A DNA stretch of 64,000 nt, from NCBI RefSeq assembly GCF_003665155.1, contig NZ_RCFQ01000002.1, positions 62,001 to 126,000 on the forward strand, written 5' to 3'. Positions 27,496-34,814 of this stretch are shown here, piece after piece. Every line of letters begins with the position of its first letter. The first letter of the stretch is position 1. Position numbers and translations under genes: made by a program. The notes below the pieces were generated by a model. That model searched no databases and was not told the DNA's origin. It worked only from the letters and a program-made list of their open reading frames with translations. The DNA is from Mariprofundus sp. EBB-1. Its GTDB lineage: Bacteria; Pseudomonadota; Zetaproteobacteria; Mariprofundales; Mariprofundaceae.

Positions 27496-28056
27496 CTATT
27501 GCTCCTTCAGAGCTTGTCTAATATCGGATAAAAACCTCTTACTATTCGGCTCCGTGTTACTGCCGTAACTGGCAATAAGGCCGCCATCGCGGCCGATTAG
27601 ATACTTATGGAAGTTCCATTGCGGATACTGGCCTGCGGCAGTGGCGAGGCTTGTATAAAATGGCGAGGCGATGCCGGCGCGTACATGTGATTTGGCAAAC
27701 ATCGGAAACTTCACATCATAGGTGAGACTGCAGAATGATTTGACCTCGGCTTCGGTTCCGGGCTCCTGTTTGCCGAAGTCATTCGACGGGAAACCCAGCA
27801 CAACCAATCCCTTTTCCTGAAAGTTACTGTACAGCTGTTCCAGTCCTTCGTACTGGCGCGTGTAGGCACAGTGGCTTGCCGTATTTACCACAAGAAGCAC
27901 TTTTCCTAGGTAGCGATTACAAAGATTGACGGGCTGATGCTCAACCAGCGTCTGTACCTTGTAATTCAGTATTGGCGGGCATGCTTCTGCTGCCAGCGTT
28001 GGGGTTGTCATTGCCGGGATTGCCATGCTCAGTGTTAGCCATAATAGATAACGCAT
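27496..28056 (-). CDS. Glutathione peroxidase family protein, exported
   Basis: A 186-residue thiol peroxidase of the GPx/BtuE family with a signal peptide (about 1-22, ending TLAA), so it acts in the periplasm. The peroxidatic residue is Cys63 in NTASHCAYT (a Cys, not Sec); the Gln in FGKQEPG and the Trp in WNFHKYL complete the catalytic set. ATG 28056 is chosen because ACAGGAG precedes it and the signal peptide starts there. The promoter overlaps the TGTA-box operator shared with the LitR-like gene, so it is probably co-regulated with the light island as a defence against photo-generated peroxides. Confidence 0.92.
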   Translation of the reverse strand: MRYLLWLTLSMAIPAMTTPTLAAEACPPILNYKVQTLVEHQPVNLCNRYLGKVLLVVNTASHCAYTRQYEGLEQLYSNFQEKGLVVLGFPSNDFGKQEPGTEAEVKSFCSLTYDVKFPMFAKSHVRAGIASPFYTSLATAAGQYPQWNFHKYLIGRDGGLIASYGSNTEPNSKRFLSDIRQALKEQ

Positions 28057-28088
28057 TTGATTCTCCTGTAGCTGCAAATGTAATGTTT

Positions 28089-28139
28089 TGTATAAGTTCT
28101 GTACAGTTTTAGTTGAATTTATTGTACATTCTTTGTATG
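28089..28139. promoter_or_regulatory. LitR/CarH-type operator of TGTA boxes between gpx and litR-like genes
   Basis: Four boxes in the same orientation: TGTATA at 28089, TGTACA at 28100, TGTACA at 28123 and TGTATG at 28134, i.e. offsets of 11, 23 and 11 bp. Known CarH/LitR operators are tandem direct repeats with an 11-bp period. On the minus strand a promoter for gpx fits over them: -35 TTCAAC (28112-28117), a 17-bp spacer and -10 TATACA (28089-28094), so a bound regulator would block it. Confidence 0.75.
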
Positions 28140-29033
28140 CTTCGCTGTATGTCTGCACTCGCCCACCTTCCCGATACCAAACAATTTCCTATTCGCCATG
28201 TGGCGCAGGTAACCGGTGTTTTGCCCGTGACCTTGCGAGCCTGGGAGCGTCGTTATGGGCTGATTAAGCCCGAACGCACACCCAAGGGGCATCGCCTTTA
28301 TTCCGAGGCTGATATTCAGACAGTTCATCAGATTGTTCGTCTGATTGATCAGGGCATATCGGTTGGCCGGGTTCGCCAGTCGCTATCCGGTATCGGTAAG
28401 GAAGAGGATACAGTTTCCGACTGGCCGGAATTCCGGGAGCAGTTATTGCGCTCACTGTATGGCTTGAATGCGATGCAGGCGCTTGCCGTGTTGCGCCGGG
28501 TCGGTGCGCTCTACCCGCTGCATGCGCTGCTGGGTGAATTGATCCGACCTGCATTGTTGCAGTTGCAGCATTCTGAAGCATCAGGTCGCTGGGCCTTTCG
28601 TTCCATGTTGATGCAGGCGATCCACCTGTACATGGATCAGCGCACGGTCGGTGTCGAGGTTAATACTAGGCAGCAGCCCATCCTGATTAGTCGTTGTCTG
28701 GCTGCGGGTGACGATCTGCAGGCGAGGGTGTTCGAGGCACAGGCCAGAGAAGCAGGACTGGATCTGCGCTGGATTGGTTCGGCACCGAGCCCGCTGGCGT
28801 TTGCTGATCTGTTGCAAACCAGCGGGGCAGGCGGTGGCCTGCTTTGGGAGGATGCCGAGCCGGTTGATGACTGGGCGGCACAGCTGCAGCAGTTGAAACA
28901 TGCCTCACCCGTTCCGTTGGCTGTGGCAGGAGATTTTTCCCTGCGCCACGTCACGCGCCTGCAGGAATTGGCAGTGCCCGTGTTAGCACAGGATGCAACC
29001 GCCGCTCTGCAGATGCTACGTACATGGAAATAA
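28137..29033 (+). CDS. litR: MerR-family LitR/CarH-like regulator with degenerate cobalamin module
   Basis: About 298 residues. The MerR HTH (about 18-85) includes VTLRAWERRYGLIKPERT and GHRLYS, a hallmark of the CarA/CarH/LitR group. The C-terminal half matches the helix-bundle plus B12-binding layout in length, but key residues are changed. The CarH Wx9EH motif reads W152-x9-I-H163, keeping His but losing Glu. The DxHxxG cobalamin ligand region reads AAGDDLQARV, without the axial His. It therefore probably does not bind adenosylcobalamin, like class II LitR proteins that rely on a partner photoreceptor. There is no clear ribosome site; ATG 28149 is an alternative. It heads the photolyase/BLUF operon. 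Confidence 0.85.
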   Translation: MLRCMSALAHLPDTKQFPIRHVAQVTGVLPVTLRAWERRYGLIKPERTPKGHRLYSEADIQTVHQIVRLIDQGISVGRVRQSLSGIGKEEDTVSDWPEFREQLLRSLYGLNAMQALAVLRRVGALYPLHALLGELIRPALLQLQHSEASGRWAFRSMLMQAIHLYMDQRTVGVEVNTRQQPILISRCLAAGDDLQARVFEAQAREAGLDLRWIGSAPSPLAFADLLQTSGAGGGLLWEDAEPVDDWAAQLQQLKHASPVPLAVAGDFSLRHVTRLQELAVPVLAQDATAALQMLRTWK

Positions 29034-29047
29034 CTGGAGGAAACATT

Positions 29048-29311
29048 ATGACTCATCGAATACATCGTAACGGATTGATTTTTGCAGCAACTATCCTGCT
29101 AGGTTTGTCTCTTGCCGATATCGCACTGGCTACCCCTTCATTTTCCCGTCAGGTGAATGCGGACTGCCGTACCTGTCATTTTCAAAGCATGCACGCCCTG
29201 AATAAATTCGGTCGTGCGTTCAAGAGCAATGCCTTCAACCTCAACAAGCAGATGAGGCAGGAGCTGAATCAACGCCGGAAGAGTAAGGCTGTTACTGACC
29301 GTGTAGGCTGA
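29048..29311 (+). CDS. Mini c-type cytochrome-like protein, one CxxCH
   Basis: An 87-residue exported protein: signal peptide about 1-28 (ending ALA), then PSFSRQVNADCRTCHFQSM with one heme-attachment motif C40-R-T-C43-H44, then ALNKFGRAFKSNAF. This last block matches the N-terminal region of larger heme proteins with a CxxCH-x-FP-LT-FGR-FK pattern, but here it stands alone and ends soon after in a basic tail. A strong ribosome site (TGGAGGAAAC) precedes ATG 29048. It lies 14 bp after the regulator gene and 6 bp before the photolyase GTG. Role unknown; perhaps an electron carrier or heme sensor of the light operon. Confidence 0.75.
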   Translation: MTHRIHRNGLIFAATILLGLSLADIALATPSFSRQVNADCRTCHFQSMHALNKFGRAFKSNAFNLNKQMRQELNQRRKSKAVTDRVG

Positions 29312-29317
29312 TTCGTT

Positions 29318-30733
29318 GTGCAAGCGCCTTCTTTGACATACCACCATGCGCTGGTTTGGCTGCGCCGTGATTTGCGCCTGCATGATCATACAGCCCTGCT
29401 GGCAGCGTTGCGGCAAAGCCGTAACGTCAGTCTCTGTTTTGTGCTTGATCCTGCACAAACGACTGAGCATGACTGGCATAGTAGCCCGGGGCTGGCATTC
29501 ATGCTTGAAAGCCTTCTCCTGCTTGATGATGAGCTGGCTGCGCTCGGTTCGGGCCTTATCATTCTGCAAGGTAAACCGGAGGATGCGCTGGCCGAAGCCA
29601 TTGACCACGGCGATTTTGATGCCTTGTTTCTGAACCTGGACTATACCCCCTTTGCCATCCGGCGGGATGCAACAATCACCGCGCTATGTGAACGCCGGGG
29701 CATACCATTGCATACCAGCCACGATGCCCTGCTGACTATTCCCGGCGAAGTGCTGACGGGTAGCGGGAAGCCATATCAGGTATTCACGCCATTTCATCGA
29801 ACGGCTGCCGCGCTGCCGGTGGCGATGCCGCAGCCATGTGAGCATGCCGGCAAGCTGGCTCCCATCTCCGTACAGCTTAGAAACGATTACCGGCAAATCC
29901 TGTTAGCGCTTAAGCGCCGTGCATCACCGGTCGCCGCCGGCAGAGGCGGGGCGATGACTACGCTTGATCAACTGGCAGGCCTGCAGGATTATCAGACCAC
30001 GCGTGATATGCCGGCACTCGATGCCACCAGTCACCTGTCGGTGCATTTGAAGTTCGGTACCTTGTCCGTGCGCGAGGCGTACCATGCCATGCAACAGTAT
30101 CTGGATTCCACGCACCCTTTGTTGCGCCAACTTTACTGGCGCGATTTTTTCAGCCACATCGCATTTCATCACCCGCAGGTGTTCGGTTCGGCATTTCAGC
30201 AGCGGTTTGAGCATATTGAGTGGCGGCATGACGAGCGTGATTTCGAGGCCTGGTGCACGGGTAAAACCGGCTTTCCCATTGTTGATGCCGGCATGCGCGA
30301 GCTCAGCGAGACCGGCTTTATGCACAATCGTGTCCGCATGATTACCGCATCCTTTCTGGTCAAGGATCTGCATATCGACTGGCGTTGGGGTGAGGCATGG
30401 TTTGCCCGTCATCTGGCGGACTACGATCCGGCCGTGAATAATGGTAACTGGCAGTGGGCTGCATCCACCGGCTGTGATGCACAACCCTGGTTTCGTATTT
30501 TCAACCCATGGTTGCAGCAACAGCGTTTTGATGCCGAATGCGTTTACATAAAACGCTGGCTGCCTGAACTGGCCGGGCTTTCAGCCGCCGCAATTCATCA
30601 ATGGCAGAAGCATCCGCCGAGCGACCATGCCTATCCACAACCCATCGTCGATCATGCCACGCAGTCCCGGCTGGCGAAAGCCATGTTCAAAAGCGCCCAT
30701 GACAAGGAGGCTGTCAATGACCACAGATTGTAA
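29318..30733 (+). CDS. phrB: Deoxyribodipyrimidine photolyase (class I CPD)
   Basis: A 471-residue FAD enzyme that splits UV-induced cyclobutane dimers using blue light. The N-terminal antenna-binding domain starts LVWLRRDLRLHDHTALL. The C-terminal FAD domain has LRQLYWRDFFSHIAFHHP, GFPIVDAGMRELSETGFMHNR, DWRWGEAWFARHLADYDPA and NNGNWQWAASTGCDAQPWFRIF, retaining the Trp chain and substrate-contact residues. It starts with GTG; no better ATG exists. It overlaps the next gene by 17 bp. Confidence 0.96.
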   Translation: MQAPSLTYHHALVWLRRDLRLHDHTALLAALRQSRNVSLCFVLDPAQTTEHDWHSSPGLAFMLESLLLLDDELAALGSGLIILQGKPEDALAEAIDHGDFDALFLNLDYTPFAIRRDATITALCERRGIPLHTSHDALLTIPGEVLTGSGKPYQVFTPFHRTAAALPVAMPQPCEHAGKLAPISVQLRNDYRQILLALKRRASPVAAGRGGAMTTLDQLAGLQDYQTTRDMPALDATSHLSVHLKFGTLSVREAYHAMQQYLDSTHPLLRQLYWRDFFSHIAFHHPQVFGSAFQQRFEHIEWRHDERDFEAWCTGKTGFPIVDAGMRELSETGFMHNRVRMITASFLVKDLHIDWRWGEAWFARHLADYDPAVNNGNWQWAASTGCDAQPWFRIFNPWLQQQRFDAECVYIKRWLPELAGLSAAAIHQWQKHPPSDHAYPQPIVDHATQSRLAKAMFKSAHDKEAVNDHRL

Positions 30734-31673
30734 ACCACGAGTGGTAGTAAGCCGCTGCCTCGGATTCGAGTCATGCCGCTATAATGGCCAGATGCTCGCT
30801 GATAATCTTATCGAACGGCTGAAATCCCATGTCGAAATAATCACCGTCTGCCCGGAAGCGGATATCGGACTTGGCACGCCCCGTACTCCCGTGCGCCTGG
30901 TTAAACAGCAGGGCGAAATTATGATGATTCAGCCCTCAACGGGGGAGGATGTCAGTCAAGCCATGCACGCCTACAATCAGTCAACCATGGCCGGGCTTTC
31001 GGATATCGACGGTTTTATCATGAAAAGCCGATCACCATCCTGTGGGCCTGCAGGCGTGAAGGTGTATGCGTCATCGGGAAAGGGTGCTACTGCCGAAAAA
31101 GGTGTTGGCCTGTTTGCTCAGGTTGCCATGCAGCGTTTTCCGTTTGCCGCCATTGAGGATGAGGGTCGCCTGAAGAACTTCCATCTGCGCGAAGCCTTCC
31201 TGATGCGGCTGTTTGCGCTGGCGCGGCTGCGTCAGTTGATTGCCGAGCCATCCGTGGCCGGATTGACAACCTTTCATGCCAGTCACAAGTTGCTGATGAT
31301 GTGCTTCCATCAGGAGATGATGCGCCAGTGTGGTCGTATCGCCAGTAACGGTGACGGGCTGCCCCTGGCAGTCATGGTGGAGCGGTATGCCGGCGTATTT
31401 CGGGAGGCCCTGAACCGTCAGCCCGGACAAAGGAATATTATCAATGCCCTCTATCATGGCTATGGCTGGATTTCCGAAGGCTTGTCGGCGGCTGACAAGA
31501 AGCTGTTTCTCGATGCTATGGAAGAGTACCGGGATGATCGGGTCACATTGGCAACCATGCTGCATCTACTTAAGTCTTATGTGGCACGCTTTGCTCATGA
31601 TTACCTTGGTTCGCAGCACATTCTCGAACCTTATCCGCGTGACCTGTTTAATCTGTCGGATTCCGGTCGATGA
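30717..31673 (+). CDS. DUF523 plus DUF1722 (YbgA-like) protein
   Basis: A 318-residue two-domain protein. The N-terminal DUF523 domain (about 1-150) has VVVSRCLGFESCRYNG, CPEADIGLGTPRTPVRLV and SRSPSCGPAGVKVY with several conserved Cys that could bind a metal or cluster. The C-terminal DUF1722 domain (about 195-310) has FHASHKLLMMCFHQ and LPLAVMVERYAGVF. DUF523-DUF1722 proteins often neighbour photolyase genes and are part of LitR-type light regulons in several bacteria. A perfect AAGGAGG site precedes ATG 30717, inside the photolyase end. It overlaps the next gene by 4 bp. Confidence 0.92.
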   Translation: MTTDCKPRVVVSRCLGFESCRYNGQMLADNLIERLKSHVEIITVCPEADIGLGTPRTPVRLVKQQGEIMMIQPSTGEDVSQAMHAYNQSTMAGLSDIDGFIMKSRSPSCGPAGVKVYASSGKGATAEKGVGLFAQVAMQRFPFAAIEDEGRLKNFHLREAFLMRLFALARLRQLIAEPSVAGLTTFHASHKLLMMCFHQEMMRQCGRIASNGDGLPLAVMVERYAGVFREALNRQPGQRNIINALYHGYGWISEGLSAADKKLFLDAMEEYRDDRVTLATMLHLLKSYVARFAHDYLGSQHILEPYPRDLFNLSDSGR

Positions 31674-32269
31674 AACTGGTGCAGCCGGAAGGGGGGTGTA
31701 TCGATGACGTGTTCCATACGTCCTATCGAATCGATCAGCATGATTGCATTTATGCCGTAGGCGATACATGGCAGTCGGTGGCAGAACAGAACCGGGTTGG
31801 TGATAGCTGCGGACTCGGCACGCTGCAGGGGAAGTCGGTGTTCGAGCAGTTCAGCGATGCAGAAACGCGGATGATTTATGCCAAACTATTCGAACGCGTT
31901 CGGGCATCAGGGCAAGCCGTTTGCTTCCGGATTCATTGCGATGCATTGCATCTGGTTCGCATTCTTGAGACCCGTATCCTACCGTTGTCCGATAAACATC
32001 TGGAGGTGGGGTTCAGGGTAGTCAGCGAGCAGGAACGAGACCCTGCTGTAGTGATTGAGCTCTGCGGGCTTGAAAAACCATTTATTACCATGTGCAGCTA
32101 TTGCGGTAATCTGAAAAATCGTGATGGCGAGTGGCAACCACTGGAAGAAGAAATCAGTGCCAGTGACCTGTTTAATGTCCGGGATCTACCCTCAATCAGC
32201 CATGGTATTTGCGCCGACTGTAAAGAAAATTTTCTTATGCAGCTTGCTGCCTACAGGATGAGAGCATGA
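31670..32269 (+). CDS. PAS-like protein with C-terminal CxxC-CxxC module
   Basis: A 199-residue cytosolic protein. Residues 15-125 have a PAS-like alpha/beta pattern (YRIDQHDCIYAVGDTWQSVA, GLGTLQGKSVFEQF, RILETRILPLSDKHLEVGF). The C-terminal part has CSYCGNLKNRDGEWQPLEEE and SHGICADC (Cys142, 145, 181, 184). This Cys module, usually CxxCK-R---G-W--LE-YI...SHG-C--C, is found at the end of PAS or receiver proteins and looks like a zinc or iron-sulfur site. There is no output kinase. ATGA overlaps on both sides bind it tightly to the operon. It may sense redox state or a cofactor; its function is undetermined. Confidence 0.75.
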   Translation: MKLVQPEGGCIDDVFHTSYRIDQHDCIYAVGDTWQSVAEQNRVGDSCGLGTLQGKSVFEQFSDAETRMIYAKLFERVRASGQAVCFRIHCDALHLVRILETRILPLSDKHLEVGFRVVSEQERDPAVVIELCGLEKPFITMCSYCGNLKNRDGEWQPLEEEISASDLFNVRDLPSISHGICADCKENFLMQLAAYRMRA

Positions 32270-32820
32270 TTGTTTTTCTGAGAATAATATTTGTCGCGTC
32301 CGTGCTGGCAATCACTGCCACATTCAGTGGCTGTACCGGACTTCCTGCTGGAATCACGCCCGTGTCCCAATTTGAACTGCAGCGCTATCTGGGTACGTGG
32401 CATGAGGTGGCCAGACTCGACCACTCCTTCGAGCGGGGACTGACTCAGGTAAGTGCCGATTATTCACTACGCGATGATGGTGGAGTGAAGGTGCTGAATC
32501 GCGGCTGGGACGATGAAAAACAGCAGTGGAAGGAAGCTGTTGGCAAGGCCTATTTTGTCCGTAACGCCAATGAAGGTTATCTGAAGGTCTCTTTTTTCGG
32601 CCCTTTTTATGGTGCTTATGTAATCTTCTCCTTGGATGCCGACTATCGCTACTCCTTTATTTCCGGGCCGGACAGGGACTATCTGTGGTTTCTTTCGCGT
32701 ACGCCGGATGTACCTCAACCAGTAATGCGGAAATTCATGTCGCAGGCAGCAGCACTGGGCTTCGATACCGATAAGCTTATTATACTAAGCCAGCAGTATA
32801 GTCAGGAGGAGTCCCGATGA
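32266..32820 (+). CDS. blc: Outer membrane lipocalin (Blc-like)
   Basis: A 184-residue lipoprotein with lipobox TFSGC (Cys at about residue 23). The lipocalin fold is marked by LQRYLGTWHEVARLDHSFERG (GxW motif), ADYSLRDDG, and GPFYGAYVIFSLDADYRYSFI, followed by the SRTP..PQPVMRKFMSQAAALGFDTDKLI helix region. Bacterial lipocalins bind fatty acids or lysophospholipids and help in membrane stress or repair. Lipocalin genes occur in LitR-controlled photolyase clusters elsewhere. It overlaps both neighbours by 4 bp. Confidence 0.92.
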   Translation: MIVFLRIIFVASVLAITATFSGCTGLPAGITPVSQFELQRYLGTWHEVARLDHSFERGLTQVSADYSLRDDGGVKVLNRGWDDEKQQWKEAVGKAYFVRNANEGYLKVSFFGPFYGAYVIFSLDADYRYSFISGPDRDYLWFLSRTPDVPQPVMRKFMSQAAALGFDTDKLIILSQQYSQEESR

Positions 32821-33689
32821 TTCGCATTGTTTATGTCAGCGTCGCCACCAAGCCCTTTGACGATAAAGAGTTGCTGCAACTGCTCGCAAGGTGCAGAGCC
32901 AGTAATACCGAGAGGCTTATATCCGGTCAACTGATCTATAGCGATGGAACCTTTATGCAGGTACTCGAAGGGCCGGAAAAAGAGGTGGATGCAACCTACG
33001 CGCGCATTAAAAAGGATACGCGACACACGAATGTCACGTTGCTTGAACGCAACACCATTGATGAAAAACAGTTTCCGGATTGGAGCATGGGTTTTAAAAC
33101 ACTCAACCGTGAACAGCTTGAGGGGATACAAGGTTACAACTACCAGTTCGATGAAGATGTGAACGGTGATAACCCTTTTACCAGTCAGTTGTTTGTCTCC
33201 GAGTTGATGAAAAATGTGAAGAATCAGTATGTGGCCGACATATCACGCGAGGGCGCTGCACTGCATCAGGCCGACACATCGCTGATTGGCTACCTGAACA
33301 AACTGGTTAATTATACGGTACTGGTGCTTGCAGCATTGATGGCCTTTGTGGTGCTTTGCGGTGTCGCCGAAATTGCTGCCGAGCTTTATGTGATGATCAA
33401 AAGTACACCGTATGTACTGCTTAGTATCAGTGGTATTACATCCACCTTTGCCTCTTTCCTGGCTGTGCTGATTGCCATCGATATTTTTATAAATATTTCG
33501 CTCTATGTACGCAAGCATGTGATTGCCGTGCGTCTGGTAGTGGCTACGGCCTTGATGGCTGTGGCACGAAAAATTATTGTTCTTGAATTCGCCGATATCC
33601 AGCCGATGCAGATCATTGCCATGGCCGGACTCGTGGCCGTACTGGGCTTCTGTTATTACTATTTATCACGGTTGAAAGAGAACGATTAA
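32817..33689 (+). CDS. BLUF photoreceptor fused to a PsiE-type membrane domain
   Basis: A 290-residue protein. Residues 1-95 are a BLUF flavin domain with all functional residues: Tyr6, Asn30, Gln48 (GTFMQVLEG), and Trp89/Met91 in FPDWSMGF. Residues about 160-285 contain four hydrophobic helices whose last half (VIAVRLVVATALMAVARKII, then GLVAVLGFCYYYL) matches the phosphate-starvation-inducible PsiE family. So a blue-light sensor is tethered to the inner membrane by a PsiE domain. Most BLUF proteins are short or fused to EAL domains. It is the last gene of the island operon and shares it with a LitR-like regulator lacking cobalamin ligands. Confidence 0.88.
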   Translation: MIRIVYVSVATKPFDDKELLQLLARCRASNTERLISGQLIYSDGTFMQVLEGPEKEVDATYARIKKDTRHTNVTLLERNTIDEKQFPDWSMGFKTLNREQLEGIQGYNYQFDEDVNGDNPFTSQLFVSELMKNVKNQYVADISREGAALHQADTSLIGYLNKLVNYTVLVLAALMAFVVLCGVAEIAAELYVMIKSTPYVLLSISGITSTFASFLAVLIAIDIFINISLYVRKHVIAVRLVVATALMAVARKIIVLEFADIQPMQIIAMAGLVAVLGFCYYYLSRLKEND

Positions 33690-33749: not shown

Positions 33750-34814
33750 ATGACGTTTACAACAAAAGATAGTTTCAAACATGAAGATGCCGTTTCAACA
33801 GGCGTGCTTCTCACCAACCTGGGTACACCTGATGCTCCCACCAAGGTAGCGCTTAAACGTTATCTGAAAGAATTTCTTTCGGATGTACGGGTGGTGGAAG
33901 AGCCTCGTTGGAAGTGGTGGCTCATCCTTAATGGTATTATTTTAAATATTCGTCCTGCAAAATCTGCCAAGGCCTATGCGAGTGTCTGGACCGAACGCGG
34001 TTCACCACTAATGGTGCACAGTCTGGGTCAACAGAAAGGACTGCAACAACTGTTTGGTGACAGTGTGCATATTGAGTTAGCCATGCGTTATGGCAACCCA
34101 TCAATTGCGTCGGGTTTGCAGAAGCTGCGTGAAAAGGGCTGTACCAGGATTCTGGTGCTTCCGCTTTATCCGCAATATGCCGCTGCCACAACAGGTTCAA
34201 CGTTCGATGCGGTGGCCGATGAACTCAAACTATGGCGCTGTGTTCCAGAACTCCGCATGATTAATGCCTATCATGATTTCGCACCATATATCGAGGCGCT
34301 TGCAGGAAGTGTGCGCAAACAGTGGGATTCCAATGGCAAGCCGGATCGTCTTTTAATGTCCTTTCATGGTATCCCACAGCGTTATTTTGATGAAGGAGAC
34401 CCTTACCCGTGTCTGTGCCGTAAAACCGGACGTCTGTTGGCAGAAGCTCTCGACTTGAGTGAGGGAGAATGGTTTGTCGCCTTCCAATCCCGCTTTGGCC
34501 GGGAAGCATGGATCAAGCCCTATACGGATGAAACACTGAAAAAATGGGCTAAGGAAGGTGTTGGTCGTGTCGATGTCATATGTCCGGGTTTTTCTTCCGA
34601 TTGCCTAGAAACGGTTGAAGAGATTGAAGTGGAAAATCGCGACTATTTCATCGGCGCAGGCGGTAAAGAATTCCATTATATTCCAGCCTTAAATGTGGAT
34701 GAAGCGCATGTAAAAGCATTGGCTGGTCTTATTCAAAAACATATTGTTGGTTGGGCTAAGCCAACAAGACAGGAAGAAACAAAGTTGTTAGTGGTTAACG
34801 GCTCGGAGAGTTGA
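33750..34814 (+). CDS. hemH: Ferrochelatase
   Basis: A 354-residue enzyme that inserts Fe(II) into protoporphyrin IX, the last step of heme synthesis. Family motifs are GVLLTNLGTPDAP, YLKEFLSDVRVVE, GSPLMVHSLGQQ, the active-site His in LLMSFHGIPQRYFDEGDPYPC, FQSRFGREAWIKPYTDETL and the Glu in SDCLETVEEIE. It follows the BLUF gene by 60 bp with its own ribosome site (GTAGGAATAA). It may be separately transcribed, but keeping protoporphyrin, a photosensitiser, low would fit the light-stress theme. Confidence 0.95.
   Translation: MTFTTKDSFKHEDAVSTGVLLTNLGTPDAPTKVALKRYLKEFLSDVRVVEEPRWKWWLILNGIILNIRPAKSAKAYASVWTERGSPLMVHSLGQQKGLQQLFGDSVHIELAMRYGNPSIASGLQKLREKGCTRILVLPLYPQYAAATTGSTFDAVADELKLWRCVPELRMINAYHDFAPYIEALAGSVRKQWDSNGKPDRLLMSFHGIPQRYFDEGDPYPCLCRKTGRLLAEALDLSEGEWFVAFQSRFGREAWIKPYTDETLKKWAKEGVGRVDVICPGFSSDCLETVEEIEVENRDYFIGAGGKEFHYIPALNVDEAHVKALAGLIQKHIVGWAKPTRQEETKLLVVNGSES

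Follow-up and report, generated by a model that had tools for sequence, protein, structure and literature searches.

A LitR/CarH-fold regulator without cobalamin ligands, encoded in an apparent operon with a BLUF-PsiE protein in Mariprofundus sp. EBB-1

As a natural series, the LitR/CarH proteins show a single repressor scaffold coupled to adenosylcobalamin (AdoCbl), to LOV proteins or, in the related BluR, to a BLUF-EAL protein. The sites bound by CarH proteins consist of tandem 11-bp repeats and overlap the -35 element (PMC9304148). A class II protein, PmlR2 of Pseudomonas mendocina, binds TGTACA-N12-TGTACA and is relieved by the short LOV protein PmSB-LOV (PMC9758184, whose class definitions are followed here). 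In E. coli, the BLUF protein BluF relieves the MerR repressor BluR under blue light (PMC3509220), and in Myxococcus xanthus CarA, a B12-independent CarH paralogue, is relieved by the protein antirepressor CarS. Unlike the Mariprofundus protein described below, CarA keeps the EH and the B12-binding motif and has lost only the Trp region (PMC9304148).

The window analysed in this work (the whole stretch of DNA, 64,000 nucleotides, from the iron-oxidising marine bacterium Mariprofundus sp. EBB-1) carries a litR gene within the following set of features:

27496-28056, minus strand: glutathione peroxidase (GPx), divergent, sharing the operator region (Pfam, synteny)
28089-28139, no strand assigned: predicted LitR operator TGTATA-N5-TGTACA-N17-TGTACA-N5-TGTATG in the litR/GPx intergenic region (sequence)
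28113-28141, plus strand: predicted litR operon promoter, weak, with -35 TTGAAT, a 17-bp spacer containing TGTACA, and -10 TATGCT (sequence reading)
28149-29033, plus strand: LitR/CarH-fold MerR-family regulator without cobalamin ligands (alignments, profiles, structure model)
29024-29311, plus strand: small exported CxxCH protein, kept beside litR in Mariprofundus (ORF, synteny)
29318-30733, plus strand: class I CPD photolyase (domain match)
30717-31673, plus strand: RudS (TudS + DUF1722), tRNA 4-thiouridine eraser (Pfam; function from PMC11417400)
31670-32269, plus strand: protein of 199 aa, judged PAS-like by eye, with CxxC...CxxC at its C-terminus and no Pfam family (ORF)
32266-32820, plus strand: Blc-type lipocalin lipoprotein (domain match)
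32817-33689, plus strand: BLUF-PsiE, a BLUF photosensor with a fused PsiE membrane domain (domain matches, residues)
33750-34814, plus strand: ferrochelatase HemH, 60 bp downstream of bluf (domain match)

The genes from litR to bluf are joined by 4-bp start/stop overlaps or separated by gaps of a few bases and form an apparent operon, possibly including hemH, which may be co-transcribed with them or have its own promoter. RudS removes tRNA 4-thiouridine and is often found in light-responsive operons with LitR (PMC11417400). The CxxCH protein, with a single CxxCH, resembles a c-type cytochrome-like protein truncated to its start. The PAS-like protein, possibly another sensor, was found only in the operon form of EBB-1 (genome G000), G006 and G013. 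A hemH gene also lies near LitR in loci L046, L094 and L103 of unrelated gammaproteobacteria, a position that fits removal of the photosensitiser protoporphyrin.

The litR reading frame comprises 298 codons from the ATG at 28137, from which residues are numbered below, and is also open from a TTG at 28113. The ATG at 28149 is the more likely start, because relatives retain it and the ATG at 28137 falls within one of the operator repeats. LitR is 92, 77, 49, 48 and 43% identical to its five relatives in the genus, and the divergent GPx gene is kept beside it across them; litR is thus very probably a functioning gene. It encodes the genome's only full-length LitR match. At the N-terminus LitR has a canonical MerR helix-turn-helix (Pfam MerR_1, E 1e-15), as had been predicted, containing the recognition helix RxWERRY of class I LitR/CarH in the form LRAWERRYG. 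The DNA-binding residues are nearly invariant across the Mariprofundus proteins, in which the clade-specific C-terminal stretches RWA, ARExGxDxRWxG and LWE are also conserved. There are few cysteines (C4 and C187).

The original prediction held that LitR keeps the W-x9-H part of the CarH motif Wx9EH while lacking its Glu and the cobalamin-ligating His. The residues on which it was based (W152, I162, H163 and G191-D-D-L-Q-A-R197) were read correctly, but the assignment of W152 and H163 did not stand: they are unrelated to W131 and H142 of CarH. LitR was aligned with Thermus thermophilus CarH (TtCarH, sequence taken from pTT27) by MAFFT, the profile of the clade was compared with 15 intact class I proteins by hhalign (probability 100 over 287 columns, with low local confidence at the tryptophan loop), and MAFFT was run on a second set. 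In all three alignments W131 of CarH falls in a 2-residue deletion of the Mariprofundus protein, and E141 and H142 align with R155 and S156, respectively. H163 of LitR lines up with R149 of CarH. The axial ligand H177 aligns with D192, which is not conserved in paralogues.

Because the profile alignment was weak around the tryptophan loop, two structure models were added. For an intact class I protein, the model (pLDDT 91.5) places W144 third from last in helix 3 (125-146) and EH (154-155) at residues 5-6 of helix 4 (150-173). In the AlphaFold model of LitR (pLDDT 90.7) helices 3 and 4 span 128-145 and 151-171; R155-S156 take the place of EH, with W152 and H163 elsewhere inside helix 4. The register equating W152 with W131 and H163 with H142 is ruled out by the alignments and both models. 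R151-W152-A153 is invariant in six Mariprofundus LitR proteins, and position 163 reads H/H/H/N/A/T across the same six. Taking together the helix placement, the alignments and the variability of H163, the W-x9-H pattern is, as judged from sequences and models, a coincidence. The predicted loss of the Glu and the ligating His, on the other hand, proved more complete than claimed. Of the class I motif Wx9EH the Trp is deleted and EH is replaced, and the lower axial His of D/ExHxxG is missing as well, so that W131, E141, H142 and H177 are all absent. A histidine at the axial-ligand position, named in advance as the finding that would speak against the loss, was looked for; this position holds an Asp.

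Neither Pfam B12-binding_2 nor B12-binding matched LitR even at E<=1, while both matched the controls, TtCarH and the class I LitR of the zetaproteobacterium G074. When the LitR model was searched with Foldseek, CarH structures ranked first, and comparison with the isolated cobalamin-binding domain of TtCarH gave a TM of about 0.8, an rmsd of 3.3 A and 16% identity. These results support the proposal that the scaffold was kept and the cobalamin site lost. A CobA/BtuR adenosyltransferase gene is present in the genome, and AdoCbl should be available in the cell; the loss would therefore belong to the regulator itself, and B12 shortage was rejected as its reason. Most likely LitR does not use AdoCbl, even though the cell should make it. 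Like TtCarH, the Mariprofundus protein has a MerR head followed by a helical bundle and a Rossmann-like domain, a predicted operator of 11-bp repeats that overlaps a putative -35 element, and a photolyase gene nearby; it differs in lacking the four AdoCbl signature residues, and the two proteins are only about 22% identical.

When 91 proteins were placed in a maximum-likelihood tree, those of Mariprofundus LitR formed a single clade (100/100) on a branch of 2.4. The clade fell on the B12-less side, apart from six Pseudomonadaceae proteins and with E. coli BluR outside it; because the branch is long, its exact place is uncertain, and with it how often B12 binding was lost. The suggested likeness to class II LitR is supported only loosely. 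With Pseudomonas putida PplR and P. mendocina PmlR2 the Mariprofundus protein shares the LitR scaffold without cobalamin ligands, the company of photolyase and RudS genes, and TGTACA half-sites. It departs from them in not grouping with the Pseudomonas proteins (a separate deep branch, though of unsure placement), in the 11-bp instead of N12 (18-bp) spacing of its predicted operator, and in having BLUF-PsiE as the co-encoded photosensor. The LOV core motif NCRFLQ was not found in the EBB-1 genome by pattern search. Motif matches in G002 (Mariprofundus erugo P3) and G074 lay outside any LOV-like ORF of at least 120 aa and were taken as chance.

The four-site array of the predicted operator had no match in 200 shuffles of the window. 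Related spacing is seen at five other Mariprofundus litR loci, with the inner sites 22 or 23 bp apart and outer sites missing in one or more of them; by sequence, these are tandem 11-bp repeats with a 22-23-bp step in the middle. An 11-bp step occurs upstream of 11 of 16 LitR genes whose products carry the B12 motif and of four of the five Mariprofundus relatives, and such repeats are also visible in the TtCarH upstream region. The other B12-less LitRs compared, 49 in number and mostly from Halomonas, show an 18-bp step in 16 cases, with 11 bp not among the listed steps, and in the six Pseudomonadaceae litR upstream regions examined there were no paired sites. The class II arrangement TGTACA-N12-TGTACA is not present at Mariprofundus litR. 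The Mariprofundus clade thus appears to combine a B12-less protein with a CarH-like DNA site.

The array, conserved in the genus, is not repeated elsewhere in the EBB-1 genome. An operator search for a genome-wide LitR regulon gave no other convincing site, the matches being no commoner than those of a control pattern. The -35 and -10 elements proposed for litR were not recovered by a consensus promoter scan; if they are used, litR would start near-leaderless at 28149.

BLUF-PsiE contains all the BLUF residues Y6, N30, Q48, W89 and M91, in a spacing that we take to be that of AppA and PixD. It is the only BLUF protein of the EBB-1 genome and shares the operon of the only LitR. The two genes are neighbours in four genomes and in two different arrangements: bluf is in the litR operon in EBB-1, G006 and G013, and adjoins the divergent GPx gene in M. 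erugo. Across 78 Zetaproteobacteria genomes the co-occurrence of LitR and BLUF-PsiE has P=3e-4, a value that ignores kinship. In a survey of 398 Pseudomonadota genomes, drawn evenly, Zetaproteobacteria alone had the BLUF-PsiE fusion. A link between BLUF and LitR outside this class was rejected, the BLUF genes of G109 and G375 having unrelated neighbours. A viral fold search gave no convincing match. We found no published description of a LitR-BLUF pair or of a BLUF-PsiE protein in a search that covered few subscription papers.

As in E. coli BluR-BluF, a BLUF gene stands beside that of a MerR regulator without cofactor residues (in the same operon, or near it in G002, G006 and G013), and GTACA half-sites lie over the predicted -35 element and the spacer. 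The differences are that the candidate partner is a membrane BLUF-PsiE and not a BLUF-EAL protein, and that the targets are likely photodamage genes and not biofilm connectors. In G074 a short BLUF protein is encoded in a GPx-short BLUF-photolyase-RudS operon (L142:5980-9411) behind TGTACA-N5-TATACA-N5-TGTATA, and a class I LitR with intact B12 site is encoded elsewhere in that genome (L141). Judging from this 11-bp array, BLUF can be a LitR target rather than a sensor.

On these grounds we consider it very likely that LitR is a B12-independent repressor of a photodamage operon. In the dark, LitR would bind the TGTAYA array at 28089-28139 in a CarH-like 11-bp register and keep the divergent GPx gene as well as the litR-cytX-photolyase-rudS-PAS-blc-bluf(-hemH) operon switched off. 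With all AdoCbl-contacting signature residues gone, light sensing through B12 should be impossible for LitR, and the likeliest input would be the membrane BLUF-PsiE, which, once lit by blue light, would attach to LitR and release it from its DNA sites. This release is modelled on E. coli BluF-BluR and on the short LOV protein-class II LitR pair of P. mendocina; repression, the light response and the LitR-BLUF contact are inferred steps of the model. A B12-independent dark repressor relieved through a co-encoded BLUF protein is the best explanation overall, to which we give not quite an even chance. That BLUF-PsiE itself antagonizes LitR is put forward with somewhat more reserve. More tentative still is the evolutionary reading, according to which the zetaproteobacterial LitR dropped AdoCbl, kept the CarH fold and the 11-bp operator, and gained membrane BLUF-PsiE as blue-light antagonist.

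The most serious competitor, less probable but far from negligible, also takes LitR to be B12-independent and makes BLUF-PsiE merely one of its targets, relief coming from photo-oxidative stress (reactive oxygen, or a porphyrin or other ligand in the emptied LitR pocket) or from a partner encoded elsewhere. Two paralogues, the LitR of G010 and the second one of M. erugo, share the GPx/photolyase/RudS arrangement but have no BLUF gene beside them, and no BLUF was found anywhere in the approximately 99% complete G010 genome. These cases speak against BLUF-PsiE as the antagonist and agree with such a scheme, as do the nearby hemH and the G074 operon, where a BLUF gene follows an 11-bp array and the LitR is of the B12 type. 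A parallel is offered by the V. cholerae MerR gene VCA0056, which acts in a ROS-driven blue-light response without a known photoreceptor and is numbered next to the CPD photolyase VCA0057 (PMC5241685). A direct thiol redox switch is unlikely with so few cysteines, C187 not being kept in paralogues, and this reading gives no reason for bluf to lie in the operon or to adjoin GPx, as it does in four genomes.

The remaining readings fare worse. A decaying or light-independent regulator, with the operon set by other cues, is improbable: the long branch and the patchy distribution (litR in 5 of 23 genus genomes) would suit it, but the near-invariant DNA-binding residues, the conserved C-terminal stretches and the conserved operator argue against it. 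It is very unlikely that LitR is an ordinary class II protein released, like those of Pseudomonas, by a short LOV protein. Such a protein would have the same gene company and no B12 site; against this stand the lack of a LOV core motif (by motif patterns only), the separate clade and the operator geometry. We attach equally little weight to the idea that LitR has kept cobalamin binding in a ligand-free mode and senses light like CarH: the cobalamin-domain fold is kept and an AdoCbl synthesis gene is present, yet all four signature residues and any B12 Pfam match are missing.

If the preferred reading of a dark repressor relieved through BLUF-PsiE is right, a B12-less LitR with a CarH-type operator and a membrane BLUF would uncouple losing the cofactor from altering the operator geometry. 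It would also provide an example, open to experiment, of one sensor replacing another in iron-oxidising bacteria, whose habitats are not usually considered light-exposed.

The G+C content is about 0.55 over positions 28001-32000 of the window and about 0.47 around them; with litR in so few members of the genus, this makes horizontal transfer of the operon core possible. In two genomes without LitR (G093, L139:7747-9907; G026, L140:7603-9721) BLUF-PsiE abuts thiI, the gene for tRNA 4-thiouridine synthase, an occurrence that counts against BLUF-PsiE as the LitR antagonist. With thiI beside BLUF-PsiE there and rudS here, a link of BLUF-PsiE to 4-thiouridine photobiology is suggested, and the repeated connection with this tRNA modification points to a shared near-UV response.
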